Assembly: GCA_036768485.1 (NCBI GenBank)
Contig: JAVLUZ010000154.1
Coordinates: 8,730,342 to 8,794,341 of the forward strand
DNA: 64,000 bases
DNA from: Mermis nigrescens
Taxonomy: Eukaryota; Nematoda; Enoplea; Mermithida; Mermithidae
Direction: 5' to 3'
Part shown: positions 29,780 through 51,582 of the stretch, in pieces
Layout: each line of letters opens with the position of its first letter
Numbering within the stretch: position 1 is the first letter of the stretch
Notes under the pieces: model-generated
The model's input: the letters and a program-made list of their open reading frames with translations, nothing else
Database searches by the model: none
What the model was told of the DNA's origin: nothing
Program-made: the position numbers and the translations under genes

Positions 29780-30705
29780 AGTCTGGCGCATATGTTTACA
29801 CTCTACGGTGTTGTAAAGTAGTTTACACCAATTGTTAGTTTGCCCATAGAACATTATGTAGACTTAATTTTTTCATAAATATTAATCGTAATATCGAAAC
29901 AATATCAAAATTACGAATCTGACTAAAATCTTCTTTACACTAGGTGTTTACATGAAGTTTACACTACATACGTATTTATCTTCGTTTTTGAGCATTCCAG
30001 AAACCTAATTTTTTCCTGGAGTCTAGAAGTTTTCAAAGGATCAAATGTGAGACGTCACGTAGGCGCGTTTGTTTACATCCAACAGTGATGTAAAGTAGTT
30101 TACACTCATTGTTTATATGTCCTCAGACCATTGTAGAGACATAATTTTTTCATGAATGTTGATCATAATATCCGAGTAATTTTTTACACTGCATGTTAGC
30201 CTTTGTTCTAGAGCATTGCAAAACCGAAATTTTTTCCTGAGATATAAAAATTTACAGGGAATGAAATATATACGTCAGTTGGGCGCGCTTGCTTACACTC
30301 AGCAGTATTGCAAAGTGGTTTAAACCTAATGTTTATTGTCTTTAAAACATTATGGAGACTCATTTTTCCATAAATGTTGAAAGTAATATCGGAGCAATAT
30401 CAAAATTACGAATCCGACTAAAATATTCATTACGCTATGTGTTTGTGTAAAGTTTACATTACGTGTTAACCTTAATTCGATAGACTTGCAGAGACTTTGT
30501 AACTGAAGTCAAGAAATTTTCAAGGATTCATATGTGAGACATCAATTAAGTGAGTTTGTTTACCCTCAAAAGTAATCTAAAGTGATTTAAAAATTATGTT
30601 CAAGTGTCCTTAGATCATTGAAGAGATGTAATTTTGTCTTAAATGGGTTGCATTAAAGTTAAATCCTTCTTAGCCGTGTTTATAATATGTTTCACAAAAT
30701 CTTGC
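29780..30705 (+). repeat. Diverged tandem satellite (220-280 bp units) in left copy
   Basis: Units start near 29790, 30070, 30292 and 30560 with 'gtttacactcaacagtgatg'-type lines, followed by 'taaagtagtttacac', 'agaccattgtagagac', 'aatatcaaaattacgaat' and 'gtgagacgtcac'. The same array is at about 36050-36965 in the right copy. Non-coding; rich in GTGTAAAG and its inverse CTTTACAC. Confidence 0.75.
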
Positions 30706-30716
30706 ACATGGAGAGC

Positions 30717-31503
30717 TGACTGATTATGAAGGAATAGTTTTGAAAAATGAGCTTGCTAAGCGAGAGTTGTAAACTAAGAGGAGCTTAAAGTTTAAAACTA
30801 CCATTAAATTATAAAGATAATAATAAAAGATTTAAAGCTTTAAGAAAAAGAAAATGTGGTAAATTAAAACAAATTTAAAGGATATGATGAAACATTATTG
30901 TTGAGAATAGGACGATCACGTGCTATGTATAATGACTCCTTGATTAAAAGATCAAAAGAGTTGGATGCTCGACTGATAACCTTGAAGCAATGTGATGTAA
31001 TTAGATGATTGCTATTTGAGATATGTTTGTGAATAGCCGATAAACTATCACCCTGAATTGGCTTTCCTGTAGCAAATGAGATGCCAGTATGCTCTGCCAT
31101 TCTACTCCCAAAATGTCGGCGAGTTTCACCGATGTAACTAGCCATACAGCTAGTACACGTATACTTACTAAATTTGAGAGTAGCTTAGCAGGTACAGCAT
31201 CCTTGTTCTTGAAAAACCGCTTGATACACATAACAGGTTTGTAAACAAACCTTACTCTAATCTGAGGGTAAAATGCAGATATAACTTTTAGAATTCTGCT
31301 GCGTACATTGTAGCCATGCACACCAGTGTAAGGCAAAACAAGAGAATAGCATATAGTTTATCACACCCGAATTTTATGTCATCACTCTTACTATAAACTT
31401 TTGTCATAAAGTCTGATATGACCTTATCAATCAAGCTAAGCGGATACTCATTTTGCAGTAGATGTGTGCACAGAAGTCGACAAGTGTGCACAGAAGTCGA
31501 CAA
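30717..31503 (-). pseudogene. Penelope-like element fragment with GIY-YIG endonuclease
   Basis: Three minus-strand frame pieces follow the C-terminal half of Penelope-like polyproteins: an RT-tail piece (LLQNEYPLSLIDKVISDF), a linker piece (TGVHGYNVRSRILKVI, then IKRFFKNKD) and a GIY-YIG piece (ASYIGETRRHFGSRMAEHTG) with later NHLITSHCF and IKESLYI segments. Known: Penelope-like elements fuse RT to a GIY-YIG nuclease. Breaks: frameshifts near 31160 and 31330, no RT core. The fragment is flanked by inverted copies of a ~135-bp segment (30730-30862 and 31738-31870), and a 20-bp sequence (GTGTGCACAGAAGTCGACAA) is tandemly doubled at its edge (31464-31503). It replaces ~75 bp present in the right copy. 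Confidence 0.82.
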
Positions 31504-31980
31504 AGATATGCAGCTTTATTGTAATCATGTACATTAATAAGCCGTAAACTGTTAGTATTCTCTACACCTAGTAGTTGTGTAAAGTTTGCACTATTCATTT
31601 GTTGTTAATATGTAGTCTATACTACAAATTTATTTTACTACCAAATCAAAGCGTTAGTGTTCCTTACATTTGATATTTGCGTGAAGTTTTTGAATTTTTG
31701 CCGAAAAACTTTGCCTTCTAATTTACCAACATCCCGCCTTTTCCATTTTCTTAAAGTTTAAAATCTTTTATAAGTCTCTTAATAATTTAATGGTAGGTTT
31801 TAACTTTAAGTTTATCTTGGTTTACAACTCTCGCTTAGCAAGCTCATTTTTCAAAACTTTTTCATAGTGATCAGATTAGTCGCGTTTAGTTTGGAATTGG
31901 TGGACGGTCGTTATATTATTACTCGGCTTAAATAAACCAAGTGACTATCTTTTGATTATTTTCTTTATCGCAAATTCAAA

Positions 31981-32062
31981 CACCCAATTTTCAATTTGAA
32001 AATTGACCCAATTTTCAATTTGAAAATTGATCCGATTTTCAATTTGAAAATTGAAAATTGGG
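31981..32062. repeat. 22-bp palindromic tandem repeat
   Basis: Three units of CCAATTTTCAATTTGAAAAT type in the left copy; the right copy (37543-37600) has two. Each unit is self-complementary (TTTTCAA/TTGAAAA). Confidence 0.85.
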
Positions 32063-32373
32063 TGTTTTTAATTTCAAAAGTCACAACACATTGTGCTTGT
32101 GTATTGATTGAGTGAGGATTTGCAATGTGAATTCGTTGGTTAAATATTTGTGCTTGATTATAAGTGAACTGCACATTAAGACGAAATAACTTAATGGAGT
32201 TTTAATTTGAAAATGGATGGTGTCAATAAGGTTGTCTTGTTTAAAAAGGATAATGCTGATGTTAAGAACAATATTGTTTTCCGCGTTCTTGAACTGTTGT
32301 CATTATTGTGGCACTGTTACTGATTGTGTTTACTGAGTGATGTACTGAAATCACGCTAATTAAAAGTAGTGTA

Positions 32374-33138
32374 CTAGCAAAGAAAAATGTTCCGATGGAA
32401 CAAAAAAGATGAATATACTTGGAATTGTGGATTATTATGGATGTAAAAGGAGGGGACTAGGAAAAATCTACCTAAAGTCGGAAAATCTGCTAAAAATCAC
32501 ACTTTCTCTAAGCAACGCAAAAAATCGATGTATATTCTGCGGCCTCTAAAAAAGTGTCTTTTTTAAATAATGTTCGAAGTTTCAGATAAGAGTGTATAAA
32601 CGAAATCTATCAAGGTTACTTTTTTAAATTGCTGGCACCTGATTGATAGAAAACTAAGAGGTATTGTATTTAAAGTTGTTTTATTTTGTTATGAACATTA
32701 TAGCAAGCAAAGCAGGAGCCGATTGATTAGTGCACACAATAGTTTCGGGCATGCTAGTGTATCTACATTTAGTCTGTTTCAAGTCAACTTACGCGTTTCC
32801 TACTGTTTTAAACCAACCATGTCTTCAATTGTCTTCGATGTTTGCTATTTCATTCAATTGGCTTGGAAGACTGTTAGTTTACTTAATATCATTTCCCATA
32901 GCTACTGCATAGCTAACGTGCTGCTGTTTCAATCACTGTTATGGTTGAATATTTATTTTAATCTGTTGGCCGCAGAATATACATCGATTTTTTGCGTTGC
33001 TTAGAGAAAGTGTGATTTTTAGCAGATTTTCCGACTTTAGGTAGATTTTTCCTAGTCCCCTCCTTTTACATCCATAATAATCCACAATTCCAAGTATATT
33101 CATCTTTTTTGTTCCATCGGAACATTTTTCTTTGCTAG
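32374..33138. mobile_element. TA-flanked element with ~165-bp inverted arms
   Basis: Left CTAGCAAAGAAAAATGTTCC, right GGAACATTTTTCTTTGCTAG, inverted over about 165 bp, with TA on each side (32372-32373, 33139-33140). 765 bp, no transposase. In the right duplicated copy the same element starts at 37909 but is cut at 38587, inside its right arm. Confidence 0.88.
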
Positions 33139-33185
33139 TATAAACATCACTGAGTGACGACTGACGACTACGATCATCTTATACA

Positions 33186-34410
33186 TGTAACTTAAAGGGC
33201 GGTTGACACTTTAGAGTTGTCTTAGCGCGCGCAAACGAGTTGGCTGATTAAGTACTTGAAGTATGTACGGATAACTAAACCGACAGCACGCCGTCGGGGA
33301 AGGTACCCAACACACAACAACTACCAAAGCAACGAACCCCAATAAGTACCTTCGGGGCTTACCTAAGTACCTATGCTACAGCTAGCGCTGGTCAAGAAGC
33401 TGCGGTAAAAACCTGCACTCTTCCAAAATGACCCTGAATACCTACTACCTAAAATCTCCACGGACGTAATTGGTCCGGTACTTATGGAGATTATGGGAAA
33501 GAGATGCCGACCGCAGATCTTAACCAGGAGTAATTAGATAACCCCGGAATTCGCCCTAGGTCCTTTGACCTTTTTAGACCAAAAGAAATATTTTTCGCGA
33601 AAAGAATTGAAAAGGTTTCGCACTAGATTACCTATGGCGAAACTACTTATAATTTCTGGTTCCAATAGCACTCTGTACTTAAAACACAACAACAAAGAGC
33701 TCTACTCCGGGCTGTCATCAACTATAAAAATTATGTAATAATTTTTATAGATTTTTGGTTTGAAAAAGGAATTGTGAATTTTGCACAAAATGATAACCAA
33801 AGATTTTACCCAACGAAATCCGGCAAGGAATATATGTATGGCCGGCCAAGTCCCACTTCCTAACTACCTGCGATATATTGCACCTCTAGGTAGTTGATTT
33901 TCGTGCTTTTTACCAAATCAAAATAATGTACAAGCAAATGGCGCTGATAGAGTCGGAGATGACACGCCGCAAAAGCAAAGGCCAAACTGCCACCAACCAA
34001 CTCAATAATCCTCAGGGGGATTGGCCTACAGTAATATAGAGAAGAAAAATATTGTATAATGTGTTTATGACAAAAATTGTGTGCTTCTTGCACATAGATT
34101 TTTCGGGTCTCCGCACAGGCTCAACGTGAATAGCGGTCATGTCGCCTATGTTTTTAATGTGAAAAGTGATAGGGGACTTGTAGGGGGTTCCACAGTAAAA
34201 GGTCGCATCTTTGTATCTCTCGCGACACATAGCGACAAGAGTCCAACCAAGTGACACTGCGTGGTCGGAATGCCTCCGCATGTCATATCGTCGATCTGAA
34301 AATATGGCTGGATCGCCAAAGTGGAACCAAACGACCGGATGGTCGGAATTGGCGCACTAATGTGCGCAAAGGCCGTACAAGTAACGGCTCGTGTAGATAC
34401 ACTATCTACA
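33186..34410 (-). repeat. 3' LTR
   Basis: 1225 bp, starts TGTAACTTAAAGGGCGG and ends CACTATCTACA on the plus strand. Near-identical to 50267-51488; differences include a G/A near the start and short indels near 33910, 33995 and 34040. A TATAAAAATT on the minus strand near 33745 may be a promoter element. Confidence 0.96.
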
Positions 34411-34421
34411 CTCCTCCCCTC
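34411..34421 (-). other. Polypurine tract of the retrotransposon
   Basis: The minus strand reads GAGGGGAGGAG directly against the TGTAGATAG start of the 3' LTR, the position and composition of a plus-strand primer. The nested TRIM has a matching AGAGGGAGGAG against its LTR. Confidence 0.85.
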
Positions 34422-34828
34422 ACCGGGAAAAAATTCGGAACACGGGCCGAATTTTTTAAAGTGAAAAATAAAATTAGTAGAAATATGAGAAAATTTGTTG
34501 GGGATCCAACAAATGAAAAATTTTGAGTAATGTATTCAAATTTTTAGGTTGGGCCCCCTGTGGATGGGAAAAAATTTTGAGTTGAAAAGTATGGCGGCTG
34601 AATCCATGACTGAGCCTCTATCGAGTAGTGCAGAAACCTGAAAAATAAATTTGAATAAAAGAAAAATTAAGTAGATTTTAGATAAAATTAAGATAAAATA
34701 AGGCCACACTTGCTCTAAGCAAGTTCGGGAATCAACGAGCTTAAAATGACAAGATTATGCAAAATTTAAAGACAAAAAGTTTAAAGGCAAAGAGAATAAC
34801 GAATCGCGGACTAGTAGTTTTATAATCA
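34422..34828 (-). other. Retrotransposon 3' untranslated segment
   Basis: AT-rich interior between the purine tract and the inserted duplicated unit; no coding frame of note. Confidence 0.6.
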
Positions 34829-37800
34829 TAGGTAGCGCGTTAGCGCGTACCTATAATATACTTGGGTACCCCCAACACCTGGGCACCCCCTACAGCTATA
34901 ACGGGACACTTCTGGAAGGTGCGGTTTGTTTTTAAAAGAAAGATAATAAAAAAATTCGCTGCCCGTGTTTTTTTGTTTTTCTTGAAACTCAAAATTGACT
35001 GTGTAAAGAAGGTGTAAAGTTTTTGTGTAACGGTATAACATAGGACAAATTTTGGGACCTTTTTACTGCGGCATGTGGACAACTGAGTATTGATGACTCG
35101 AAAGATTGAACAGAATAGGATAATAGAGGGATGAATTCTACAGATGACACTTTTTTTGTTTTTTGAAATTCGCATTATTTATCGAACGGCAGTGTAAAGA
35201 GTGCGAAAATCTGGGGGTGAAAAAGCACTTTTTGGTCGAGTTTTCAACCTTCCTATGTCCGATACTAACTCCGGTTATGAGGTTTTTAAAATGTTTTCTG
35301 ACAGAAATGTAGAGCTGATCAAGGGCTACATTCTGCATATAAGCAAAGTCTTCTATGCTCTATGGTGAGTTAGATCCTGGGGTTTAAAGTTTACACTCTA
35401 GTGGATATTGTAAAAAAACGGATTTTAATTAAGATTTCTCTGCCAAATTTTTCCGCTTATGAGTCAGTGCAAATCGAAGACAGCATTAATAAAGTGCCTC
35501 ACAGGGGCTAAACATCGCAGCAAACCGCATTTAAAAAAACGCAATATTGATTTATTTATGGGGGTGTAAAGTTCGAAATCAGAGGTAAAAAATGGGCGAA
35601 AAAACACGTTTTTTCCGAAGTTTGATTGATAAATCATGCCAAATAATTTTTGCAACAGACTTTTGGCACACAGGAATGTACTACGATTTAAAAGCTACAA
35701 ATTGTACCAAACCGAATTTCTTTAAACTCAATGGGGAGTTCGGTACGGAATTTTAAAGTTTACAGTGTTCTAAATGATGGAAAATACGTTTTTGTTGCGT
35801 TTTTTGTTCGCCACTTTCTCCGTCCAGAAGTCGGGATAAGTCTAATAGAATAAAAATGAAGTGCTTTATATCGGATGCATGTCAAAGCAAATTGTCTATA
35901 CATTAATATTTAGCGAGTGTAAAGTCAAAAATTTGGAGTTTAAAATGCGTTTCTGTCTTGTTTTTTCTGCCTGCTTCTCCGGTTACGAGTCAGGGACACG
36001 TTTATCAAGTCTAGAAATGGACCAGGAACCAAATTTGATATGCCAGTCTGGCACATATGTTTACACTTTACGGTGTTGTAAAGTAGTTTACACCAATTGT
36101 TAGTTTGCCCATAGAACATTATGTAGACTTAATTTTTTCATAAATATTAATCGTAATATCGGAACAATATCAAAATTACGAATCTGACTAAAATCTTCTT
36201 TACACTAGGTGTTTACATGAAGTTTACACTACATATGTATTTATCTTCGTTTTTGAGCATTCCAGAAACCTAATTTTTTCTTGGAGTCCAGAAGTTTTCA
36301 AAGGATCAAATGTGAGACGTCACGTAGGCGCGTCTGTTTACATTCAACAGTGATGTAAAGTAGTTTACACTCATTGTTTATATGTCCTCAGACCATTGTA
36401 GAGACATAATTTTTTCATGAATGTTGATCATAATATCCGAGTAATTTTTTACACTGCATTTAGCCTTTGTTCTAGAGCATTGCAAAAACCGAAATTTTTT
36501 CCTGAGATATAAAAATTTACAGGGAATGAAATATATACGTCAGTTGGGCGCGCTTGCTTACACTCAGCAGTATTGCAAAGTGGTTTAAACCTACTGTTTA
36601 TTGTCTTTAAAACACTATGGAGACTCATTTTTCCATAAATGTTGAAAGAAATATCGGAGCAATATCAAAATTACGAATCCGACTAAAATATTCTTTACGC
36701 TATGTGTTTGTGTAAAGTTTACGTTACGTGTTAACCTTAATTCGATAGACTTGCAGAGACTTTGTAACTGAAGTCAAGAAATTTTCAAGGATTCATATGT
36801 GAGACATCAACTAAGTGAGTTTGTTTACCCTCAAAAGTAATCTAAAGTGATTTAAAAATTATGTTCGAGTGTCCTTAGATCATTGAAGAGATGTAATTTT
36901 GTCTTAAATGGGTTGCATTAAAGTTAAATCTTTCTTAGCCCTGTTTATAATATGTTTCACAAAATCTTGCACATGGAGAGCTATCGTTTAATTGATGTAA
37001 ATTGCCTGCAAAAGTGGTTTAAAATGAACCAGCAATCACACTACTGTGCACAGAAGTCGTGAAAGATATGCAGCTTTATTGTAATCATGTACATTAATAA
37101 GCCGTAAACTGTTAGTATTCTCTACACCTAGTAGTTGTGTAAAGTTTGCACTATTCATTTGTTGTTAATATGTAGTCTATACTACAAATTTATTCTACTA
37201 CCAAATCAAAGAGTTAGTGTTCCTTACATTTGATATTTGCGTGAAGTTTTTGAATTTTTGCCGAAAAACTTTGCCTTCTAATTTACCAACATCCCGCCTT
37301 TTCCATTTTCTTGAAGTTTAAAATCTTTTATAATTCTCTTAATAATTTAATGGTAGGTTTTAACTTTAAGTTTCTCTTGGTTTACAACTCTCGCTTAGCA
37401 AGCTCATTTTTCAAAACTTTTTCATAGTGATCAGATTAGTCGCGTTTAGTTTGGAATTGGTGGACGGTCGTTATTTTATTACTCGGCTTAAATAAACCAA
37501 GTGACTATCTTTTGATTATTTTCTTTATCGCAAATTCAAACACTCAATTTTCAATTTGAAAATTAATCCAATTTTCAATTTGAAAATTGAAAATTGGGCG
37601 TTTTCAATTTCAAAAGTCACAACACATTGTGCTTGTGTATTGATTGAGTGAGGATTTGCAATGTGAATTCGTTGGTTAAATTTTTGTGCTTGATTATAAG
37701 TGAACTGCACATTAAGAAGAAATAACTTAATGCAGTTTTAATTTGAAAATGGATGGTGTCAATAAGGTTGTCTTGTTTAAAAAGGATAATGCTGACGTTA

Positions 37801-38587
37801 AGAACAATATTGTTTTCCGCGTTCTTGGACTGTTGTCATTATTGTGGCATGTTACTGATTGTGTTTACTGACTGATGTACTCAAATCACGCTAATTAAAA
37901 GTAGTGTACTAGCAAAGAAAAATGCTCCGATGGAACAAAAAAGATGAATATACTTGGAATTGTGGATTATTATGGATGTAAAAGGAGGGGACTAGGAAAA
38001 ATCTACCTAAAGTCGGAAAATCTGCTAAAAATCACACTTTCTCTAAGCAACGCAAAAAATCGATGTATATTCTGCGGCCTGTAAAAAAGTGTATTTTTTA
38101 AATAATGTTCGAAGTTTCAGATAAGAGTGTATAAACGAAATCTATCAAGGTTACTTTTTTAAATTGCTGGCACCTGATTGATAGAAAACTAAGAGGTATT
38201 GTATTTAAAGTTGTTTTATTTTATGAGCATTATAGCAAGCAAAGCAGGAGCCGATTGATTAGTGCACACAATCGTTTCGGGCATGCTAGTGTATCTACAT
38301 TAAGTCTGTTTCAAGTCAACTTACGCGTTTCCTACTGTTTTAAACCAACCATGTCTTCACTTGTCTTCGATGTTTGCTTTTTCATTCAATTGGCTTGGAA
38401 GACTGTTAGTTTACTTAATATCATTTCCATAGCTACTGCATAGCTAACGTGCTGCTGTTTCAATCATTGTTATGGTTTAATATTTATTTTAATCTGTTGG
38501 CCGCAGAATATACATCGATTTTTTGCGTTGCTTAGAGAAAGTGTGATTTTTAGCAGATTTTCCGACTTTAGGTAGATTTTTCCTAGT
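34829..38587 (+). repeat. Large duplicated unit, right copy, inside the retrotransposon
   Basis: Matches 28565-33056 from the same first base (TAGGTAGCGCG) to CCTAGT. It lacks the Penelope-like fragment and has two rather than three 22-bp repeats. The right boundary is inside the right arm of the TA-flanked element (starting 37909); the next base belongs to the retrotransposon ORF. Orientation matches the left copy. The last minus-strand ORF of the retrotransposon reads through this border into repeat sequence. Confidence 0.92.
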
Positions 38588-39637: not shown

Positions 39638-40290
39638 TCACAGAGTGTGTTTGTATTTGTTCTGGACATATCGGCTGGCCCTTAATAAAGGAATAGCTTC
39701 GTGATAGGATTTCAAACGTTCTAAGTACGCGGTCTGATCCTCACGTCTTATTTCAGAGGCCACGGCTAAAGAGCCTGGCTTACGTGCAACAGTAACACGT
39801 GGCATTGGTGGCATCGGTTGAGTTTCACGTTCGGATTTCTCAATTACCATGCGGGCCTGGCGCAAATCAATCTGAGCCTGTAAAGAAAGATCTGTAACAT
39901 TTCGTCGTTTTTTCGCTTGGGGGCCACTAGGGCCCTGCGTATCAGCAGCTCGTTTCTGTGATTGGCGTCTCTGCTGGTTTTGGCGGATATTGTCCAATTC
40001 GTCAGGCAGGTTTTTCTGAAGATAATGCGATGAGTGTTGTCGCGATTTGTGTCGACCAAATTGGGCAGGGACCGTTAAGTCTGGATCCGTGGCTTTGCGA
40101 ATTAGCTGAATATCATGATGCAGCCTAACCAGATCCTCGATTTCTTCCGCTAATTCAGGAAATTCTACGAAGGCTTCCCTAGGAAATTGAGTATACGTCG
40201 GACCGAAAGAAGGCGGCACGAAGCATCCGTCAAATTTGTTCACACATTCGCCAAGCGATTCCAGGATCGCCATACAACGTCGCAAAGATG
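39638..40290 (-). CDS. Retrotransposon 3' module, third fragment
   Basis: Open frame (nominal start 40420; the part matching the module starts near 40290). Contains an acidic helical stretch (EFPELAEEIEDLVRLHHDIQ), a basic QAKKRRN cluster that could be a nuclear signal, and a C-terminal ERLKSYHEAIPLLRASRYV helix. No family recognised. Joined to the preceding fragment by a frameshift near 40250-40290. Confidence 0.6.
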
Positions 40291-40985
40291 AAGAAACGTT
40301 GATCCATAAAGCGCAACAGTGATGTAGCTTGCAACACGTGCGCGGTAGCAAACACCGGTTTGCGGCTGAAAGTGGTTTTGTATTCTCTCTCGAATTCACA
40401 AAACGCTTCGAAAATGTCAACCATTTGCCGCATCGTCAAACACAACGGCGCCGTATGATCAGGCTGAGGCTGGATACGATGCGGGAAAAATTCAGGCTGA
40501 ATTGTGACGCCAATTCGAACGTTCATTTGCGGCGGCGTCGGCTGAAATGGATGATTTGCGACGTACTGGATGTTTACCTCGTAGACCATGTAACCGGTTG
40601 TGATGAACATGCGGTTTCGCGTGAACAACGGATCTGGATAGAACTGGCGATGGAAGACAGAAGGCTGCGTAATAAAACGCGGCGCAACCTGATTCCTAAA
40701 ACCCTCGTTTGGATCCACATCCGTGGGTAACCGTAGCAAAATGACTGGCCTCTCCGGCGGATTGGAAATTCGACAATATTGCAAATAACGGGCGTACATT
40801 GCATTGTAGCACAGCTGAATATCGTTACGTAGACCTGTGTACAATTCCAAACCTGCTTCTTGCCCAAGCCAATCGTGAAAATTGAGAAAATTATGGATAG
40901 ACAGGCAAGGTTGACCTGTTTCCTGCAACTCTTGCATGGTTTCCTGAAAATAATTCAGCGTAGGCGGTTGTTCGCCGTTGTTCTT
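40230..40985 (-). CDS. Retrotransposon 3' module, second fragment
   Basis: Frame continuing from about residue 570 of the exonuclease ORF after a one-base shift near 40975-40990. Compact sequence with many aromatic residues (HNFLNFHDWLGQEAGLELY, TTGYMVYEVNIQYV, FEAFCEFEREY), suggesting a folded domain. Not recognised. Ends at a stop where the third fragment takes over in another frame. Confidence 0.6.
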   Translation of the reverse strand, partial: KNNGEQPPTLNYFQETMQELQETGQPCLSIHNFLNFHDWLGQEAGLELYTGLRNDIQLCYNAMYARYLQYCRISNPPERPVILLRLPTDVDPNEGFRNQVAPRFITQPSVFHRQFYPDPLFTRNRMFITTGYMVYEVNIQYVANHPFQPTPPQMNVRIGVTIQPEFFPHRIQPQPDHTAPLCLTMRQMVDIFEAFCEFEREYKTTFSRKPVFATAHVLQATSLLRFMDQRFFIFATLYGDPGIAWRMCEQI

Positions 40986-42693
40986 CGTTATCCTGAACCT
41001 GCATCGGCTGCTCAGCCGGAGTTTGGACAACTGGTTCCGTCGGTTTTGGCTGCGAAATTCGAGGAATACGCGTCGACGGCAATGGCTTGGCGGCAAAAGG
41101 CAACGTCATTGAGGCCATGATATTTTGGATATCCGTCGGCGCCGAGTAAGCAGGCGGAGGAGGAGGAGCCACTGAAGCTGGAACAGCTTGTAAGGGCTCA
41201 AAACGCGATTTCCGAGTACGTGCCGGTTGAGAAACAAAAGGCAAATTTTTGACATCCAGGGGCCGACCTAGCGGAGCGCTGGTTGCGGCCACAACTGGTA
41301 CCCTATCTAAAACGTTTATGTCCATCGGTTCAGGCACATTACGCGATGTGGATGGCAGAGTGGCGATGATATCGTCAAGAACTTGTTGCTGCGTCGGCGA
41401 TGGCGGACGCTGAGAAGGCGGCGGAAATGGCGGCCTACCCTGGTCATCTAACTTGTAGCCGTCTAAAATAATCATCGTCGGATCCTCGCCGTCCGAATCA
41501 GCTGTCATTGATCTGCGAAAATGTCGTCGTATGGCTTTTCGCCTTTGGGTCATATTGGGCGGCAATTTCGACAACTTGATGTATAGCGGCTCCGGCGGCG
41601 GCGCTGCCTGAACAGAACGTTTGTCACCCTCAAACGTGAAACCTGGCGGAATACGACGAGGAGAAATTTGACTCATGTTTGGCGAATACGTATCGATGAG
41701 AATGTAGACATCGAGCGAGAAAATCGGGTCTAAAACGAGATACCGTAACATAGGACCCGTCAAAGGCATGTTCCATGCCTGGCCAATCCACGTGACTGCC
41801 AAAGAATCCGGCTGCATATCGAAGAAGAAAGCTGCCAACGTTTTTAGGCGATGATTTCCGGCATCGATACGATTTTCGACCATGAAAAAGCGGCTCATCA
41901 CCAGCGTATCTAAAATATTAGCCCTGAAAACAGAACGCGATGGAGGAAAGCTATCACGATTTTGTAAATAAGCCACTACATCTGCGCGATGTGGGCCGTA
42001 GACGTGAAAATAGGCAATTTTATTGTTGCTGGGGTCGTGGCAAGCTAGAAAGACGTCCCTCAAAGGTGTCTCAAGCAATTCCGCCAACCCAAACGGGGGC
42101 TGTGGAAACCTAGCCAAATTCCAGACAAAAACATGGCCACGAACGTCAGCGATCTGAATGTATCGAACAAAAGGACCGTTGGCCTGCATGTAGTTGGGAT
42201 CTAGCTGCTGCCAATATTGCTCCCAAATGCGGTAGGGCATGAACAAACGGTCGTTAACATGCTCGGAGTCGAAGCCAAAGAAATACTGGCTGTTAAGACG
42301 ATTCGACGACCTGAAAAGTGTACGTATCGCGTTGTATGATTGTTCGTGCGTTTCGATCATTACGGTACGTCGAATGTTATTGGCAGGCACGTAGGGCGCT
42401 GACAACGGGATACGGTCCATCGTTGCCAGCCACCACTTACGTTGGGCGTAAATGCGATTGTAATGGTTAGGCGTCTCGTGATGTGAAGGCTCGCGTAGAT
42501 TTGGCGTTACGTGTTCGTCGTTTTCGAAATAAAGCATCTGTAAAGGAACTACGTCTGCGCGATACTGCTTTGCAGCAGCCGCAGCTTCGAGCGCTACGAG
42601 GAAATGGGCGGCATCGTTGTCGTTCCCGAGGCTAAACGTCGGACGATCTCGGTCCACGATGTCCTCTTCTGTTGGGGCACGCTGCTCAGCCAT
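40891..42693 (-). CDS. DEDDy 3'-5' exonuclease-like ORF in a retrotransposon
   Basis: 600-codon ORF starting ATG at 42693, overlapping the integrase end by 100 bases in another frame. Residues ~135-336 match the RNase D/WRN exonuclease layout: motif I FGFDSEH (D142, E144); a KIAYFH...ADVVAYL segment (D238); NILDTLVMSRFF (D262-T263, the usual 'DT' strand); LKTLAAFF; and PLTGPMLRYLVLD, giving motif III Y318-x3-D322. All DEDDy catalytic positions are present. Known: this fold removes nucleotides from RNA or DNA 3' ends with two metal ions. After ~340 the chain is proline-rich and disordered, with a PPAY motif at 513-516. Frame is lost near residue 570. Target in the element's life cycle unknown. 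Confidence 0.82.
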   Translation of the reverse strand: MAEQRAPTEEDIVDRDRPTFSLGNDNDAAHFLVALEAAAAAKQYRADVVPLQMLYFENDEHVTPNLREPSHHETPNHYNRIYAQRKWWLATMDRIPLSAPYVPANNIRRTVMIETHEQSYNAIRTLFRSSNRLNSQYFFGFDSEHVNDRLFMPYRIWEQYWQQLDPNYMQANGPFVRYIQIADVRGHVFVWNLARFPQPPFGLAELLETPLRDVFLACHDPSNNKIAYFHVYGPHRADVVAYLQNRDSFPPSRSVFRANILDTLVMSRFFMVENRIDAGNHRLKTLAAFFFDMQPDSLAVTWIGQAWNMPLTGPMLRYLVLDPIFSLDVYILIDTYSPNMSQISPRRIPPGFTFEGDKRSVQAAPPPEPLYIKLSKLPPNMTQRRKAIRRHFRRSMTADSDGEDPTMIILDGYKLDDQGRPPFPPPSQRPPSPTQQQVLDDIIATLPSTSRNVPEPMDINVLDRVPVVAATSAPLGRPLDVKNLPFVSQPARTRKSRFEPLQAVPASVAPPPPPAYSAPTDIQNIMASMTLPFAAKPLPSTRIPRISQPKPTEPVVQTPAEQPMQVQDNEEQRRTTAYAELFSGNHARVAGNRSTLPVYP

Positions 42694-44063
42694 GGCTCTG
42701 CAAAAGGTGTAACATTAGTTAAGGGCACGGCATGTGCCGATTTAGCACCAATTAGCAAACAAACAGGCGCACACTCCCTCATATTCCTTTCCCGGCCCGC
42801 TAATTCCTCAAAACTTATAACTACTGCCGGACACACAGGTCGACGCGGTAGCTTAACTAAAACAAAATCACCGGGTACATATGCGTACTTTTCGGCGATG
42901 AGATCGGAATAGGGCAACTTTGGGGCAGGTAAGAGGCGATTACGATGCACTACATGTTCGATTAAAGGATTATGCAAATAGATGATGCGAGCCGTTTCAG
43001 GTGTTGGCAAAGATTTGATGCGATACGGACCTAATTGTTTAGGTGAAAGTTTTCCAATTTTGGGCTGAATTACTGCTTTATTGTTGAGATATACAATATC
43101 ATCGACTGCAAATTTACTTTCACGCGCTGATTTGTCATACTGCTTTTTCTGATGGTGACGCGCTTTGGCAAGATTTTTGCTAGCAATATCGTGCAAATTA
43201 AGAAGCGTGAGTTTTAAATCGGCAAGATATTTTTCAGCGACGTTAGGCAAATTAGGATTCAACGCGAGATCGCTTAAAAGCTGTATATCGAGTGGAAAAG
43301 AAGGTTCACGACCGTACAGCATTTCGAATGGCGAAATATTTGTCGATGACTGCGGTGTTGCGCGATACGCGAATAAAGCAAAAGGCAAAAATTGTTCCCA
43401 ATCGTATTGATTTCTTGCGCTTAATTTAGAAAGTCCATCGATGAGTGTTCGATTATATCGTTCTACTAACCCATCACACTGCGGATGATATGGAGTTGTG
43501 AAAACTTTTTGGACATTTAGTAATTTGCAAACTTCGGAAATTAGCGCTGATGTGAAATTTGAGCCTTGATCAGTTAGAAATCGCTTTGGAACGCCATGTC
43601 TAGGAATTACTTCGCGCAATAATAGATTTGCGATGGTGACTGCTTTTATATCAGACACTGCAAACGCTTCAACGTACTTAGTAAAATAGTCCATGAAAAC
43701 AACAATTTGATCATTCCCGGACGTCGAGCGAGGCATATGCAGACAATCACACGCGATTAACTCAAACGGTGCTGAAACTTCGATGGGCTGCAGAGGTATG
43801 GCGGTGGGATTATTCGCTACCTTACGCTGCAAACACACCTCACAATTCTTACACCATGCAAGCACATCATTCTCCATTCTAGGCCACCAGTAACGGAGCT
43901 GAATGGCAGGTAAGATTTTTCGCGCGGAGAAATGGGCTCCAAAGATGGAATCATGAAATTCGGTTAAGATGAAACTACGAAGCGATTTTGGAATGACAAG
44001 CTGATGAATAGTATTAGCTGCGCGCTTAGGCTGAAATCTGCGATAGAGGATTTTATTTAGCAA
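42594..44063 (-). CDS. Integrase with PWWP-like C-terminal module
   Basis: 489 codons. The zinc-binding part has H37, H44 and C71/C74 (FHDS...GAH...CKNC). The catalytic triad is D106, D165 and E201 with the D35E spacing (ACDCLHM, TDQGSNF, GLVERYN). A GPYRIK segment at 345-350 is the GPY/F module. Residues ~396-455 (PGDFVLVKLPRRPVCPAVVI, later LLIGAKSAHAVPLTNVTPF) follow the PWWP pattern: G-D-x-V-x-x-K, P-x-x-P-A-x-V, then a strand and 'TPF'. Known PWWP domains read methylated nucleosomes. The upstream protein continues from RT: a T7 run near 44210 shifts the frame. Confidence 0.93.
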   Translation of the reverse strand: MLNKILYRRFQPKRAANTIHQLVIPKSLRSFILTEFHDSIFGAHFSARKILPAIQLRYWWPRMENDVLAWCKNCEVCLQRKVANNPTAIPLQPIEVSAPFELIACDCLHMPRSTSGNDQIVVFMDYFTKYVEAFAVSDIKAVTIANLLLREVIPRHGVPKRFLTDQGSNFTSALISEVCKLLNVQKVFTTPYHPQCDGLVERYNRTLIDGLSKLSARNQYDWEQFLPFALFAYRATPQSSTNISPFEMLYGREPSFPLDIQLLSDLALNPNLPNVAEKYLADLKLTLLNLHDIASKNLAKARHHQKKQYDKSARESKFAVDDIVYLNNKAVIQPKIGKLSPKQLGPYRIKSLPTPETARIIYLHNPLIEHVVHRNRLLPAPKLPYSDLIAEKYAYVPGDFVLVKLPRRPVCPAVVISFEELAGRERNMRECAPVCLLIGAKSAHAVPLTNVTPFAEPWLSSVPQQKRTSWTEIVRRLASGTTTMPPISS

Positions 44064-44208: not shown

Positions 44209-45603
44209 TCATAAAAAAACTGGCGGATGATCTTTTTGCGCAGCTTGCTGTTTTGGCGCGATGGTTTGTTGTCTTATATCAGGTGGTTCGTTGTCGTCGT
44301 CAGACTCAGACGCTTCAGATTCGAGGTTAGCGACATTAGCAACGGGTTTACGTTCGAGTTTATAACGTTGTTCGTCGTGATCGTACTTAGGATGACGCGA
44401 TAATAAGTCCGCAGCGCAGTTATATGCGCCTGGTACATAAACAACCTCATACTCGTATTCCTGCAATTTTAAACCCCATCGTCTTAGACGACTGGAAGGA
44501 TCTTTTACATTTACGAGCCAAGTAAGCGCCTGATGATCTGTTTCTACGATGAATTTTTTACCATAAAGATAATGCCTATAATGCTTAATTGCCCAGACAA
44601 CCGCTAAAGCCTCCTTCTCAGAAGTGGCATAGTTACATTTGGCCGAGTTTAAAACACGGCTAGCATAACCAAGGATGAAACGATTTTTAGATGGAAGATG
44701 TTTTTGCGTAAGAATGGCACCTAGCGTGTAATTGCTTGCGTCGGTTGTCAGGATGAATTGATGATCATTATCGAACTTGGGCAACTGCAAAATCGGTGGT
44801 GAAGTGAAGGCATCTTTTAACGTTTGAAAAGCTTTTTGATGTTCCTCAGTCCAAAGAAATTCCGTGTCTTTCCTTAATAAACGAAAAAGAGGTTTCGCGA
44901 TTTTCGCGAGATCTTTTACAAATTTTTTGAACCATTGTACTAGACCAAGAAATTTCTGTAAAGCTTTCACCGTTTTTGGAACTGGAAAATTGATCAAATC
45001 TGCAATTTTAGTTAAGTCAGGAGCAATACCTAGCAAACTTATGCGATGGCCCAAAAATTGGACTTCTGCATGAGCTAGATGACATTTTTCTGGTTTAACC
45101 CTTAAGTTTGCGTTTTGTAGCGCGCGAAAGACATTTTCTAGATCTTTAAGATGCTCTGAAAACGTGCGCGAAAACACAATTATATCGTCGATGTATACGA
45201 GGCAGGTTTTCCAATTTAAACCAGCGAGAACAAGCTCCATAAGGCGCTGAAAATCGACAGGGGCGTTTTTTAAACCAAAAGGTAACACTTCGAATTCGTA
45301 GTGACCTACAGGACAGATAAAAGCGGTTTTTTCACGCGATTTTTCGTCAAGGGGGATCTGCCAATACCCAGATTTTAAGTCTAGCGTACTAAAGTAAGCT
45401 GCAGACCCTAGGGCATCAAAATAATCGTCAATTTGAGGTAGGGGGTAAATTTGGGTTTTTGTCACATCATTCAGTCGGCAATAATCCACAACTGGGCGGA
45501 GGGAACCATCTTTTTTCCCAATTAAAAACAAAGGACTGGCCCAGGGGCTTGTTGTTGGCCTGATGACTTTTTCCGCAATCATTTCATTAATTATTCTTTG
45601 CAT
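44209..45603 (-). CDS. Reverse transcriptase and RNase H
   Basis: 464 codons. RT palm motifs: LDLKSGYWQI (D75), PFGLKNAP, YIDD at 137-140 and FLGH. RNase H: TTDASNYTLGAIL, SEKEALAVVWAIKHYRHYLYG, ETDHQALTWL, which is the Ty3/Gypsy pattern. It is in frame with the protease ORF, separated by one TGA at 45612-45610. It ends at a stop created by a shift in a T7 run; the other frame continues through the missing linker into integrase. Confidence 0.97.
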   Translation of the reverse strand: MQRIINEMIAEKVIRPTTSPWASPLFLIGKKDGSLRPVVDYCRLNDVTKTQIYPLPQIDDYFDALGSAAYFSTLDLKSGYWQIPLDEKSREKTAFICPVGHYEFEVLPFGLKNAPVDFQRLMELVLAGLNWKTCLVYIDDIIVFSRTFSEHLKDLENVFRALQNANLRVKPEKCHLAHAEVQFLGHRISLLGIAPDLTKIADLINFPVPKTVKALQKFLGLVQWFKKFVKDLAKIAKPLFRLLRKDTEFLWTEEHQKAFQTLKDAFTSPPILQLPKFDNDHQFILTTDASNYTLGAILTQKHLPSKNRFILGYASRVLNSAKCNYATSEKEALAVVWAIKHYRHYLYGKKFIVETDHQALTWLVNVKDPSSRLRRWGLKLQEYEYEVVYVPGAYNCAADLLSRHPKYDHDEQRYKLERKPVANVANLESEASESDDDNEPPDIRQQTIAPKQQAAQKDHPPVFL

Positions 45604-45609
45604 GGCTTG

Positions 45610-46530
45610 TCAGCGCGCGTGTTCGACACGATAAGTTTTACCTACAACAGGAGGACTATCCCCTGTGTCGATATGATGCTTAACGAGTGGAGTGCGACCG
45701 AGTGGTTCGCCTTTTAAAGCGAATATCGAATTATATTTATGACAAAGATCACGAATTTGCTGTTGTTCCTTAGAATTAGCGATGCAACCCTGTAAAGCCT
45801 TATTTATCGAAGAAAAAAGTTCAGGTGAGCGATCGTCTGAAACAGAAACATGAGATACAACATCAACATCAGACGTTAGCGATCCAATTAGCTCTCCAGT
45901 GTCGACTTGAACAGGCGATTTCGAGATATTACATAATCGCAGAGGGAAAACTGAAACTGAGGTGTCGACGATGGCAGGGGCGACAAAAAGTGAACTTTTG
46001 CGCATAAAATCTGGATCGGGCTCGAAAAGTGCAATATCTGCATCGTAGGAACCATGACTTATATAAGCAGGTGTTATTAATTCGTGACGCGGCAAAATTG
46101 TGATTGGCTCTGAAATTGAAACATGCACGCAGATAGGACATGCGATTTTAGCATTTGGATTGGTGCGAAACTGCAATTTTTCGCTCGGTGATAAGAGATT
46201 TAATTTTATACCATTTATGAACGCGCAATCTTCGATGGGATTTACCCAGAGTAATGCGGAACGGCAAAAATCAAAACCGAGAAGCATGTCTTCTGGTAAT
46301 TTATCAATAATAGACACTAACGTGGGTATAGAATGATCTGCGATAGTTATAGTCATATTAAAATTAAAGCGAACAGCTACTGTTGTGTCACCTACACCAT
46401 GCACGACTTTAGACGTTTGTTTCGGAGGTAACCTGAAACCAAGTCTTAAAAACGCTGCAGTAGTCATCATTGTGACTTGCGAGCCAGTGTCAATTAGTGC
46501 CGGGATTTTTACACCATGAATTTCAGCCAA
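45610..46530 (-). CDS. Retrotransposon aspartic protease and RT leader
   Basis: 306 codons. Aspartic protease active site LIDTGS (D14) near the start and a second landmark MLLGFDF at about 82-88, as in retropepsins. The C-terminal third (ALKGEPLGRTPLVKHHIDTG) is the usual RT leader. Ends in a single in-frame TGA before RT; nothing else is disturbed, so it looks like a point mutation (for example CGA to TGA) rather than a natural gene end. Confidence 0.93.
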   Translation of the reverse strand: MAEIHGVKIPALIDTGSQVTMMTTAAFLRLGFRLPPKQTSKVVHGVGDTTVAVRFNFNMTITIADHSIPTLVSIIDKLPEDMLLGFDFCRSALLWVNPIEDCAFINGIKLNLLSPSEKLQFRTNPNAKIACPICVHVSISEPITILPRHELITPAYISHGSYDADIALFEPDPDFMRKSSLFVAPAIVDTSVSVFPLRLCNISKSPVQVDTGELIGSLTSDVDVVSHVSVSDDRSPELFSSINKALQGCIANSKEQQQIRDLCHKYNSIFALKGEPLGRTPLVKHHIDTGDSPPVVGKTYRVEHAR

Positions 46531-46883: not shown

Positions 46884-47396
46884 TGTAACGGGGGCGCCGC
46901 CTCCCACCGTTATGTGAGCAAAATTTTACCCGCACCGGTTTCCCGGATCTTCCGCTCTGATTCGCGTGTGTAGTACTAATCGACTACTCGGGCTCTCGCT
47001 CACAACTGCGCAAAGTATTGAATAATATTGAGAAACAATGAAACATCAACGTCATGGGTTAAACTTCAAAGTAGGCATTTCTAGCCGTTGTAGCACTCCT
47101 GCTACACTCCTCCCTCTAGGAGAAAGCGTAAGCGCAGACAACTCCAGAGAACGAAGTCTGGGACCTCCAATATGTAACGGGGGCGCCGCCTCCCACCGTT
47201 ACGTGAGCAAAATTTTACCCGCACCGGTTTCCCGGATCTTCCGCTCTGATTCGCGTGTGTAGTACTAATCGACTACTCGGGCTCTCGCTCACAACTGCGC
47301 AAAGTATTGAATAATATTGAGAAACAATGAAACATCAACGTCACGGGTTAAACTTCAAAGTAGGCATTTCTAGCCGTGAGTAGCACTCCTGCTACA
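46884..47396 (-). mobile_element. TRIM-like miniature LTR element nested in gag-pol
   Basis: Two direct repeats of 223-224 bp (46884-47106 and 47173-47396), each TGTAACGGGGGCGCC...CTGCTACA, bracket only 66 bp. On the minus strand the 66 bp start with TAT then TGGAGGTCCCAGAC (primer-site-like) and end with AGAGGGAGGAG (purine tract) against the next LTR. TAAG flanks both sides (46880-46883 and 47397-47400), a 4-bp target duplication. The two LTRs differ at about four places. No coding capacity. The host element's polymerase and integrase, or a relative's, could mobilise it; purine tract and TGTAG LTR start resemble the host element. Confidence 0.92.
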
Positions 47397-47932
47397 TAAG
47401 GATTATTTTGGCGATAGTCAGAAGATTGCATGCGATTATCATAAGGCTGATTCTGATAGTTTTGGCGATAATTCGGCGCGTAGTTGTTATAGCTTTGCCT
47501 AAAAACTGGACGCAGAGCGTCTAGAATCAAAACGTGCTCAGAACTTTGCGAGATAGGTTGGCGATTTTGGCTTTGATCGCGATATCTAGACTTAGACTGA
47601 GGCCGATTATTATAATTTGAGCGCGACGATGAGCGATTACTATTATTCCAAGAACGCGACTGACTACGTTGGCGCGCAACGGGCTCGAATTTCGCTTGCT
47701 GTGCATTTTTGTCGAGTTTGCGCTGTCTTATCTTTTTAAAACATTGGTCTTCAACATTACCCATGCGCTTACAAAAATCGCAAAATTTACGCGCTGTGGA
47801 TTGCTCATTTTTGGGGCGTTTTGATCGAGAAAACGTCTTATTACGCGAAGCGATCATGATCGGCATTATTAGAAAAACGAACAGATTCCTTAGAAATTGC
47901 ACCAGTAGTAGGATTGGCGATGGTCGAAACAT
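47397..47932 (-). pseudogene. Gag C-terminal part with altered zinc knuckle
   Basis: Minus-strand frame with a basic, Q/N/S/R-rich sequence and one zinc-knuckle-like CDFCKRMGNVEDQC. The canonical C-x2-C-x4-H-x4-C has N in place of H. Frame is +1 relative to Gag at 47841-49466; they overlap by ~90 bases. The TRIM interrupts the 3' end. Confidence 0.8.
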
Positions 47933-49466
47933 AAGGCGTTGGCGCTTTTTTCGCTACAAGTTGGCGAGCTGCATACTCTGCGCATTTAGCATTATGTAAA
48001 AATTCATGTAGCTCAGCTTCAGGCGCACGTTGATAGGCTGCAGTTGAAATTTCAGGTAGCATACCGCGCTTTAATTGATGGCGAAGCATTTCGTTAAATT
48101 GCTCAGAGTTGGTTTCAATATGAGGTCTAGCGCGTCTTAGTTGTTTGTGAAGCGCGAGATAGTAAGCTTGGACAGACTCATTGGGCTGTTGCTTACGGTC
48201 AAGAAAGTGGTCATATAACGTATCGTGATCGAGAGGGCGAAATTCTGCGATCATAGCGTACTTAGTCTTAGTATAAGAATTACGCACTTCTTGAGGTAAC
48301 GCTTCATACAAATTTAACGCATAGTCGTCGAAAAATGATGAAACAAATTCAGCTCGATCTTTTTTATCAATTTTGTATATTTTTGCCAATCTTTCAAATT
48401 CACTGAAAAATTTTCGAATATCAGTTTTTTCACCCTGAAAAGATTTCCTAGCAGCTACTGCTATATGCATTTGCTGTATGAAAGGACCGCGATTAATGGC
48501 TTCAGCAACAGATGATTTATCGCGCGAAGATGATGAAGAATCTGAATTATGACGCGAGCAACGAGAACCGCGACGCGAACTTCCACTGCGGCGCGAGCGA
48601 TGCGAATCTTCCTGCTGCGAAGAGCTAGTGTCCTCATCTGAAAATCTGACGTGGCGCTGGCTGGCTGGCGGCGCGACTATATTGTCCCTGATTGGCATGG
48701 AGTCGTCGTTAGGATTTGCTAAATTATCGTGCGCTGAAAAATTATCGCTCCTGAAATGCGACGCGTGCTGCATAGGCACGCTTTCCGCGTTAGGAGGAAA
48801 ATAATGCAAAGGCGGCGGATTTAAAGAAGGATGTTGCGTATTATTTACAGCATTAGGCACAAATTCGGGTGCTAGCTGATTTAAAGGCCGCTGCAAAAAT
48901 TCTGAAAAAGTAGGCGCGTTTTCAACACTTTGCTGATTAAACGCGTGCTGCATAGGATGCGCAGAATTAGGTAAATTATCCGCAAAAAGAGGGTTTTGCA
49001 CATGCTGCTCACGCATACGCGACGATCTAAAATCAACAGGCGTACGATCACTCATAGGTAAAATAGGCACAGATGTCCTTTCGGACGCGAGTATAACCTT
49101 AGGCTTAGGATTATTAATTGGAGGCCGAATGACAGGTGATGAATTATCAAACTCGGTTTCGTTATTTACCGTCTGTTCGACACGCCGTTTTGGTAATTCG
49201 ATAGGTACATGATTAATTACGTTTTCGTCATTATGTACTCGCGAAGACTGATTAGCCTCAGGGCGAGCAGAAAACGTAGCCGTAGGCCGGTTATTAAGTT
49301 CCTCATGTATTTGGCGCAATTCTTGCGCATGCTGAAAATTCAATTTTTCCTGCTGAAACTGCATTTTCTGAATACTCTCAAGAATAGTCGAAAGAATTCG
49401 ATCAGAATTTGACGAATTAGGACGAGTTTCATCCTCATTTTGCTTTTCAGATGCATTACTTTCCAC
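47841..49466 (-). CDS. Gag (capsid region)
   Basis: 541 codons. The N-terminal ~300 residues are disordered, N/S/P-rich with an SR patch (RRSGSSRRGSRCSRHNSDSS). Residues ~330-500 are a retrotransposon Gag/capsid-like helical region (FFSEFERLAKIYKI, YEALPQEVRNSY, YDHFLDRKQQPNESVQAYYL). It ends at TAA just before the zinc-knuckle frame, so nucleocapsid is reached only by a +1 shift or after mutation. No clear shift signal identified. Confidence 0.85.
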   Translation of the reverse strand: MESNASEKQNEDETRPNSSNSDRILSTILESIQKMQFQQEKLNFQHAQELRQIHEELNNRPTATFSARPEANQSSRVHNDENVINHVPIELPKRRVEQTVNNETEFDNSSPVIRPPINNPKPKVILASERTSVPILPMSDRTPVDFRSSRMREQHVQNPLFADNLPNSAHPMQHAFNQQSVENAPTFSEFLQRPLNQLAPEFVPNAVNNTQHPSLNPPPLHYFPPNAESVPMQHASHFRSDNFSAHDNLANPNDDSMPIRDNIVAPPASQRHVRFSDEDTSSSQQEDSHRSRRSGSSRRGSRCSRHNSDSSSSSRDKSSVAEAINRGPFIQQMHIAVAARKSFQGEKTDIRKFFSEFERLAKIYKIDKKDRAEFVSSFFDDYALNLYEALPQEVRNSYTKTKYAMIAEFRPLDHDTLYDHFLDRKQQPNESVQAYYLALHKQLRRARPHIETNSEQFNEMLRHQLKRGMLPEISTAAYQRAPEAELHEFLHNAKCAEYAARQLVAKKAPTPYVSTIANPTTGAISKESVRFSNNADHDRFA

Positions 49467-49795: not shown

Positions 49796-50266
49796 TATAA
49801 AAATGGAACGTTTGAAATATAAACGTTAGGTAAAAGAAAAATTTTTTCTCCAAAAAATTCGGCTATCTTAAAATCTGAAAAAATTTTTTCGAATTGGACC
49901 CCTCTAGGTATGGGTTTTTCCTAAAAACGTACCTCTATATGCCAAAATAGCAACGAGTACGAAAGAGAGGCACAAACGAGTTTATGAGCGTGGCGAAAGG
50001 CGAAAATATTTCGCTTAGTCGAATAGGTATATAGAAAAAATACCAGCGACTTTACCACAAATACAGAATTTCTTTGCCACGAACGCTTAACTTATCTGCG
50101 CACTGCCGCGGCGCGGACGATACGATAAAAATATACGGGCGAAACAATACACATTTTTAGAATGCCGAAATAAATATTTTTGGGTAAAGAAAATATTATA
50201 TATTAATTTAAATGATGACAGACACCGGATCGGTTGTCGCGAGCAACCTCAAGGGGGAAACTCCAG
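49796..50266 (-). other. Retrotransposon 5' leader with primer-site candidate
   Basis: On the minus strand, one base after the 5' LTR (CTGGAGTTTCCCCC), TGGAGTTTCCCCCTTGAGG begins with the TGG expected for a site pairing with a tRNA CCA end. The plus strand just beyond forms a GGTTG-TCGCGAG-CAACC stem with a 7-base loop (50232-50248) resembling a tRNA T-arm. Which tRNA is not recognised. The rest of the leader is AT-rich and non-coding. Confidence 0.6.
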
Positions 50267-51488
50267 TGTAACTTAAAGGGCGGTTGACACTTTGGAGTTG
50301 TCTTAGCGCGCGCAAACGAGTTGGCTGATTAAGTACTTGAAGTATGTACGGATAACTAAACCGACAGCACGCCGTCGGGGAAGGTACCCAACACACAACA
50401 ACTACCAAAGCAACGAACCCCAATAAGTACCTTCGGGGCTTACCTAAGTACCTATGCTACAGCTAGCGCTGGTCAAGAAGCTGCGGTAAAAACCTGCACT
50501 CTTCCAAAATGACCCTGAATACCTACTACCTAAAATCTCCACGGACGTAATTGGTCCGGTACTTATGGAGATTATGGGAAAGAGATGCCGACCGCAGATC
50601 TTAACCAGGAGTAATTAGATAACCCCGGAATTCGCCCTAGGTCCTTTGACCTTTTTAGACCAAAAGAAATATTTTTCGCGAAAAGAATTGAAAAGGTTTC
50701 GCACTAGATTACCTATGGCGAAACTACTTATAATTTCTGGTTCCAATAGCACTCTGTACTTAAAACACAACAACAAAGAGCTCTACTCCGGGCTGTCATC
50801 AACTATAAAAATTATGTAATAATTTTTATAGATTTTTGGTTTGAAAAAGGAATTGTGAATTTTGCACAAAATGATAAATAAAGATTTTACCCAACGAAAT
50901 CCGGCAAGGAATATATGTATGGCCGGCCAAGTCCCACTTCCTAACTACCTGCGATATATTGCACCTCTAGGTAGTTGATTTTCGTGCTTTTACCAAATCA
51001 AAATAATGTACAAGCAAATGGCGCTGATAGAGTCGGAGATGACACGCCGCAAAAGCAAAGGCCAAACTGCCACAAACCAACTAATAATCCTCAGGGGGAT
51101 TGGCCTACAGTAATAAGAGAAGAAAAATATTGTATAATGTGTTTATGACAAAAATTGTGTGCTTCTTGCACATAGATTTTTCGGGTCTCCGCACAGGCTC
51201 AACGTGAATAGCGGTCATGTCGCCTATGTTTTTAATGTGAAAAGTGATAGGGGACTTGTAGGGGGTTCCACAGTAAAAGGTCGCATCTTTGTATCTCTCG
51301 CGACACATAGCGACAAGAGTCCAACCAAGTGACACTGCGTGGTCGGAATGCCTCCGCATGTCATATCGTCGATCTGAAAATATGGCTGGATCGCCAAAGT
51401 GGAACCAAACGACCGGATGGTCGGAATTGGCGCACTAATGTGCGCAAAGGCCGTACAAGTAACGGCTCGTGTAGATACACTATCTACA
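50267..51488 (-). repeat. 5' LTR
   Basis: 1222 bp, near-identical to 33186-34410. TATAAAAATT on the minus strand near 50828 is a candidate TATA element. The LTR outer edge lies 94 bp downstream of the anoctamin stop codon. Confidence 0.96.
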
Positions 51489-51582
51489 TACATAACTTAA
51501 AAGCATGATATTACAGTAATTAAAAGGCGATGCAAACAAACATATATATCCATTTAATGCTTGAAGAAAGACAGTATAATGA

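Follow-up and report, generated by a model that had tools for sequence, protein, structure and literature searches.

An accessory gene of probable DEDDy exonuclease descent in Ty3/Gypsy retrotransposons of the nematode Mermis nigrescens

What is encoded by the open reading frame (ORF3) that directly follows integrase in an LTR retrotransposon of Mermis nigrescens, and does this copy still have what a 3'-5' exonuclease needs? The frame lies in a stretch of 64,000 nucleotides (the window; C61:8730342-8794341), which we analysed together with the genome it comes from (523,963,438 bases in 860 contigs). The original prediction of an LTR element of Ty3/Gypsy type at this place was borne out by an LTR pair enclosing gag, protease, reverse transcriptase-RNase H and integrase. 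The element that carries ORF3 is of Ty3/Gypsy type, lies on the minus strand and spans 18.3 kb, with the following parts listed from its 5' end:

50267..51488, minus: 5' LTR, 1222 bp, TG...CA ends, 1218/1225 identical to the 3' LTR
50248..50265, minus: putative primer-binding site, starting TGG, one base inside the 5' LTR, read from the sequence
47841..49466, minus: gag ORF, Retrotrans_gag E 1.5e-7
45610..46530, minus: aspartic protease part of pol, Pfam Asp_protease_2 E 4.3e-11
44209..45603, minus: reverse transcriptase and RNase H, Pfam RVT_1 E 2.4e-36 and RT_RNaseH E 4.7e-35
42594..44063, minus: integrase (H2C2 and rve Pfam matches) with a degenerate PWWP-like C-terminal end
34411..34424, minus: putative polypurine tract directly before the 3' LTR, read from the sequence
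33186..34410, minus: 3' LTR, 1225 bp, TG...CA ends, 1218/1225 identical (99.4%) to the 5' LTR
33182-33185 and 51489-51492: TACA 4-bp repeat flanking the LTRs, which fits a target-site duplication, a 4-bp match alone being weak

Judged by its paired LTRs and by a pol order of protease, reverse transcriptase, RNase H and integrase with matching domains, this is a Ty3/Gypsy LTR retrotransposon. The element is young. Its pol is broken twice, by an in-frame stop between protease and reverse transcriptase and by a frame break between RNase H and integrase; protease and reverse transcriptase share one open frame in the related elements L093 and L094, as do RNase H and integrase in the related element L092. 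Two duplications were also seen. A block of about 4 kb is present twice at 96-97% identity (28561-33056 and 34825-38587), one copy lying within the element, in the interval from ORF3 to the 3' LTR, and the other immediately outside that LTR; a 173-bp inverted repeat lies at the outer end of the block. The interval between gag and protease holds a near-tandem duplication of about 224 bp (46884-47106 and 47173-47396; 98% identical).

The frame directly after integrase is real, as had been proposed: it is a 600-codon open frame on the minus strand that runs from 42693 down to 40891 and shares 100 nt with the end of the integrase frame, and a plus-strand reading of 40891..42693 meets many stops. 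The motifs on which the exonuclease assignment was built are likewise all present in the letters, namely D142/E144, D238, ILDT (260-263), LKTL, PLT and Y318/D322. The pieces and residues of ORF3 lie as follows:

40891..42693, minus: ORF3, 600 aa as open here, an open frame as read, with the exonuclease-like core at about residues 95-355 (41629-42411)
42268-42270, minus: D142
42262-42264, minus: E144
42022-42024, minus: residue 224, the aligned Exo II position, here Asn
41980-41982, minus: D238
41740-41742, minus: Y318
41728-41730, minus: D322
40230..41096, minus: continuation of ORF3 in a second frame (the C-terminal part of longer copies), 57% identical over 242 aa to the ORF3 of L092
39638..40420, minus: further continuation in a third frame, 71% identical over 178 aa to the ORF3 of L092

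The three pieces (42693-40891, 41096-40230 and 40420-39638) are colinear with the single open ORF3 of 1249 aa in L092. Open frames in other copies measure 1157-1305 aa, not all free of internal stops, and the earlier ending of the window frame is common to at least 10 copies (about 606 aa). By this colinearity the window ORF3 is a frame-truncated part of a longer ORF3 that reaches about 1,300 aa in its relatives. Some of the frame breaks may be sequencing errors, the published assembly being nanopore-based. Elsewhere on this contig, copy L002 (C61:31410999-31412798) encodes an identical ORF3 protein, which may reflect recent transposition, duplication or an assembly effect.

Searched alone, the window ORF3 gave no exonuclease match in Pfam, and none to PF01612 in particular. 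Single-sequence and profile searches of the PDB with its family found no exonuclease, and protein-database searches found no homologue among 8000 candidates, perhaps dominated by low-complexity matches, or among 389 in a second search. No relative appeared in one scan of viral contigs and one of genome contigs. Against NCBIfam the window ORF3 produced a single weak match, to a DEDD exonuclease (E 0.12), and two single-sequence AlphaFold models of the window sequence had mean pLDDT values of 33.6 and 36.6. The 1249-aa sister ORF3 had no PDB match. Compared with PF01612, the sister-subfamily ORF3 reached E 0.042 and 14.1 bits, under the gathering cut-off of 23.6; when Pfam matches up to E 1 were considered, the exonuclease region was its sole match, and nothing matched the C-terminal part. 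The post-integrase position, together with a window ORF that lacks an exonuclease Pfam match, would also suit an unrelated env-like or structural protein that shows the motifs by chance.

The link to exonucleases came from other ORF3s of the same genome, in which PF01612 matched at 22 places. At 17 of these, some of them near-identical copies, integrase was matched upstream, on the same strand and within the roughly 1.5 kb fetched. The remaining five are L030 and L046, which are exons of a single probable host gene; L034, likewise a probable host exon; and L031 and L048, with no integrase seen upstream in the same fetched span. At one PF01612 place, L094, the whole element is present, with 534-bp LTRs that are 99.25% identical. 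All five other ORF3s scanned (L032, L045, L044, L040 and L050) passed the PF01612 gathering cut-off, the ORF of L032 with E 3.6e-10. Eight of the 17 integrase-associated PF01612 ORFs were aligned (alignment A3). A protein-database search with A3 covering 8000 candidates found nothing. The A3 profile matched WRN first (E 5.9e-12), followed by NrnC, EXD2 and mut-7. Of its 16 hits up to E 1, two are Rad50 and one is uncharacterised; the other 13 carry the names of exonucleases, nanoRNases, a diDNase ancestor or DNA polymerase I.

These intermediates connect to the window family in both directions. Compared by hhalign, A3 and the window family gave a probability of 98 and E 2e-13, and the profile of the eight PF01612 ORFs scored the window frame at 36.2 bits, the best decoy among 2000 shuffles and 272 other window frames reaching 3.2. 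Conversely, when 930 frames were searched with the window-family profile, the best 21 were exonuclease frames of PF01612 loci (22.3-8.7 bits; E up to 0.023; some loci counted twice). L044 and L048, with 5.8 and 5.7 bits, scored no better than noise; a PF01612 exon of probable host origin scored 3.5 bits, and the 40 matches listed did not include the E. coli RNase D frame. By hhalign, E. coli RNase D alone gave E 0.64 with the window-family core and E 2.2e-5 with A3. An env-like protein with chance motifs is, in the face of the 36.2-bit score and the reverse search, extremely improbable. ORF3 very probably descends from a DEDDy 3'-5' exonuclease of the WRN/EXD2/RNase D type (PF01612), a descent foreseen in the original prediction and here well above chance. 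Because the window ORF3 alone has no exonuclease match, it is recognisable as exonuclease-derived through intermediates only. Compared via the other ORF3s' profile, the window ORF aligns with WRN, EXD2, mut-7, NrnC and RNase D at Exo I DxE, at Exo III YxxxD and along the intervening region; unlike these cellular DEDDy enzymes, it has an Asn at the aligned Exo II position, and it is too diverged for a direct match to them.

Whether the active site is complete depends on which residue is the Exo II aspartate. D142/E144 align with Exo I DxE and Y318/D322 with Exo III YxxxD. The Exo II Asp was placed at residue 224 by hhalign, by a combined HMMER profile and by MAFFT, and the window copy has Asn there: CHDPSN(N/D)KIAYF aligns with GFDFKNDQIALG of L032 and, via A3, with GIEGDQWKL of WRN. 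In the MAFFT alignment of 10 sequences, the window copy alone lacked Asp in the Exo II column. With separate group profiles, that of group b stopped before residue 224 in all three targets (L012, L009 and the window copy), and that of group a extended over it in two of them, L012 and L009, and did not reach it in the window copy.

Residue states were read in 67 of the 83 matched stretches, window included, copies not reaching a site being left out of its count; of the 16 unfetched stretches, C510:541686-543170 reaches residue 224 by its coordinates. Residue 224 was Asp in 37 copies, Asn in 28 and Ile in two (n=67), and residue 238 was Asp in 55, Glu in 11 and Gln in one (n=67). D142 was present in 59/62 (three Asn; five not reached), E144 in 62/62 (five not reached), Y318 in 58/60 (two changed; seven not reached) and D322 in 57/60 (three changed; seven not reached). 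Homologous copies without D142, E144, D238 or D322, which the original prediction had said would speak against it, thus exist for three of these residues (Asn at 142 in 3/62, Glu or Gln at 238 in 12/67, a change at 322 in 3/60), whereas E144 was kept throughout. All 11 examined copies of the sister subfamily have D224, and all 11 have Glu at 238.

D238 had been proposed as the catalytic Asp, and on that assignment residue 224 would be non-catalytic, the window active site complete and the Glu of the sister subfamily comparable to the DEED form to which DEDD is reported to have changed in rotifers (excerpts of PMC5408684). Asp at 238 occurs in 55 of the 67 copies, never replaced by Asn, and is near-invariant within the window's own subfamily. 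The distance to the Asp of ILDT is also closer to that of other ORF3s: 24 residues from 238 against 38 from 224, with 19-21 in L032, L042 and L045 (counted by eye). Among 30 comparable codon starts, moreover, that of codon 224 has changed most, which would be odd for a catalytic site. We nonetheless consider D238 unlikely to be Exo II, as all three alignment approaches pair 224 with the Exo II Asp, and CHDPxNDKIAYFHVYGP is better conserved between the subfamilies than the stretch that holds 238. With good confidence we assign the Exo II Asp to residue 224. The earlier choice of D238, Glu in the examined sister copies, was then probably a misassignment; the full catalytic set read from it was not recovered, and the statement that every active-site residue survives does not hold on the 224 assignment. 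One catalytic residue appears lost from the window copy, which, with Asn224 and a frame-shifted ORF3, is probably without catalytic activity.

The ORF3 family comprises at least 83 matched stretches in the genome, and its copies are under purifying selection, with dN/dS of about 0.1 in the exonuclease region. A dN/dS comparison across copies had been suggested for the active-site codons; run on the exonuclease region, it gave 0.07-0.18 in all seven comparisons of the window copy within its subfamily (0.07-0.12 in six and 0.18 in the closest) and 0.14 for the more distant copy L084. Against the sister subfamily (L012 and L018), synonymous sites of this region were saturated. Between L092 and the window, which belong to two subfamilies, integrase and the RNase H end share about 90% protein identity and ORF3 shares 55-58%; integrase has dN 0.063 and dS 1.0, compared with dN 0.335 and near-saturated synonymous sites in ORF3. 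This divergence of ORF3 would fit either faster evolution or module exchange.

Among the ORF3 copies L001-L091, CpG dinucleotides are strongly variable (CG to CA or TG), as would be expected if the elements are methylated in the worm. Codon 224 lies at a CpG, and the CG-to-CA change was found there in 23 of 46 distinct copies, more than at any other of the 30 exonuclease-region codon starts that could be compared. The mean change at third-position CpG sites was 0.097, well below codon 224. Inheritance or recombination of the Asn form, and not just independent decay, thus seems needed. Asn224 is scattered over the copy tree, which implies recurrent change, recombination or both.

Since 28 of the 67 copies have Asn224, catalysis may not be what selection keeps. 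ORF3 could instead be maintained as a catalytically dispensable nucleic-acid-binding protein, for instance one that binds element RNA or blocks host silencing complexes, with Asn224 forms spreading like Asp forms. The tree-scattered Asn at the aligned Exo II position beside a dN/dS of about 0.1 agrees with this, as does the near-identity of the window LTRs, which implies a recent insertion of an Asn224 element unless the change followed insertion; Maelstrom and EXD1, described as inactive DEDD derivatives (excerpts of PMC5408684), would be models for such a protein. On the other hand, E144 and, in nearly all copies, D142 are retained despite a decay-prone CpG context, suggesting that the metal-binding residues matter, and D224 is constant in the examined sister copies. 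We judge a purely binding role improbable. We give slightly more weight, though still doubtfully, to the genome holding two segregating forms of ORF3, with and without the Exo II Asp, both under purifying selection and both spreading. In that case the inactive form would bind, or would be served in trans by the active form, and the family would amount to a natural experiment on the purpose of the exonuclease.

The overall explanation we lean towards, with moderate confidence, is that ORF3 is an accessory gene of mermithid Ty3/Gypsy elements, derived from a DEDDy exonuclease, that Asp224 copies would trim 3' ends and that the window copy is likely inactive. In copies with D142, E144, D224, Y318 and D322 intact, ORF3 would be translated separately from pol: its ATG falls within the integrase ORF, out of frame with it. 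The intact protein would work in the replication complex, trimming nucleic acids at their 3' ends; its substrate would most likely be the element's own cDNA or RNA ends, and trimming may help to make integration-competent ends. This particular role is put forward tentatively. Another conceivable substrate is the host's small RNAs: ORF3 might counter small-RNA silencing by degrading them or their 3' ends. The matches of the A3 profile include homologues of mut-7, which acts in silencing (cited in excerpts of PMC5408684), but no sequence feature points to a small-RNA substrate, and we regard this role as quite unlikely.

Exonuclease ORFs have been described in other retroelements, so the arrangement, presented in the original prediction as unusual, had already been published for rotifer LTR retrotransposons. 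RNase D-like DEDDy ORF3s occur in the bdelloid rotifer LTR elements Juno and Vesta and also in Athena elements (Rodriguez, Kenefick and Arkhipova 2017, PMC5408684, in excerpt; restated in excerpts of PMC5718144 and PMC6431247). According to the same excerpts of PMC5408684, these transposon-borne ORFs are closer to each other than to host enzymes and have no unambiguous link with copy number. A DnaQ-like exonuclease is listed among the accessory domains of LTR elements (excerpt of PMC6338049). Compared by published description, in excerpt, Juno and Vesta resemble the window element in being LTR elements with a DEDDy-type ORF3 after pol/integrase in more than one lineage. They differ in belonging to another phylum than the window's nematode; further, the window pol ORFs have no dUTPase among their Pfam matches, the window ORF3 family reaches about 1,300 aa with a long C-terminal part, and its aligned Exo II position is polymorphic for Asp and Asn, as against the DEED reported in the rotifer excerpts. 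The rotifer Athena and Terminon elements also carry DEDDy exonuclease ORFs, but are Penelope-like rather than LTR elements, up to 40 kb long with many ORFs (excerpts of PMC5408684 and PMC6431247).

A literature search, by title and start of abstract and with most subscription journals outside its coverage, found no report of a DEDDy ORF3 in nematodes. The kind of gene is thus already known; what appears new, insofar as we found no report, is its presence in a nematode, M. nigrescens, in several gypsy lineages. Exonuclease-type third genes would then be no oddity of rotifers, occurring also in several gypsy lineages of a nematode and in dozens of copies. With dozens of copies, some with a long open ORF3, a role in retrotransposition becomes testable, and copies with Asp and copies with Asn at the aligned catalytic site are ready natural variants for comparison.

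The integrases of these elements have a further feature at their C-terminal end. A literature search by title found no report of a PWWP-ended integrase of this kind. A clear PWWP domain forms the end of the integrases in one mermithid gypsy lineage (Pfam E 1.5e-11, 9e-14 and 2.4e-8), as follows:

L045:2-1135, L039:3-974 and L038:192-1046: integrases with a clear PWWP domain, Pfam
42597-42896, minus: degenerate PWWP of the window integrase, E 0.023, under the cut-off, placed by alignment with the clear PWWP integrases

Because PWWP is a chromatin-reading fold, this end of the mermithid integrases may steer integration.
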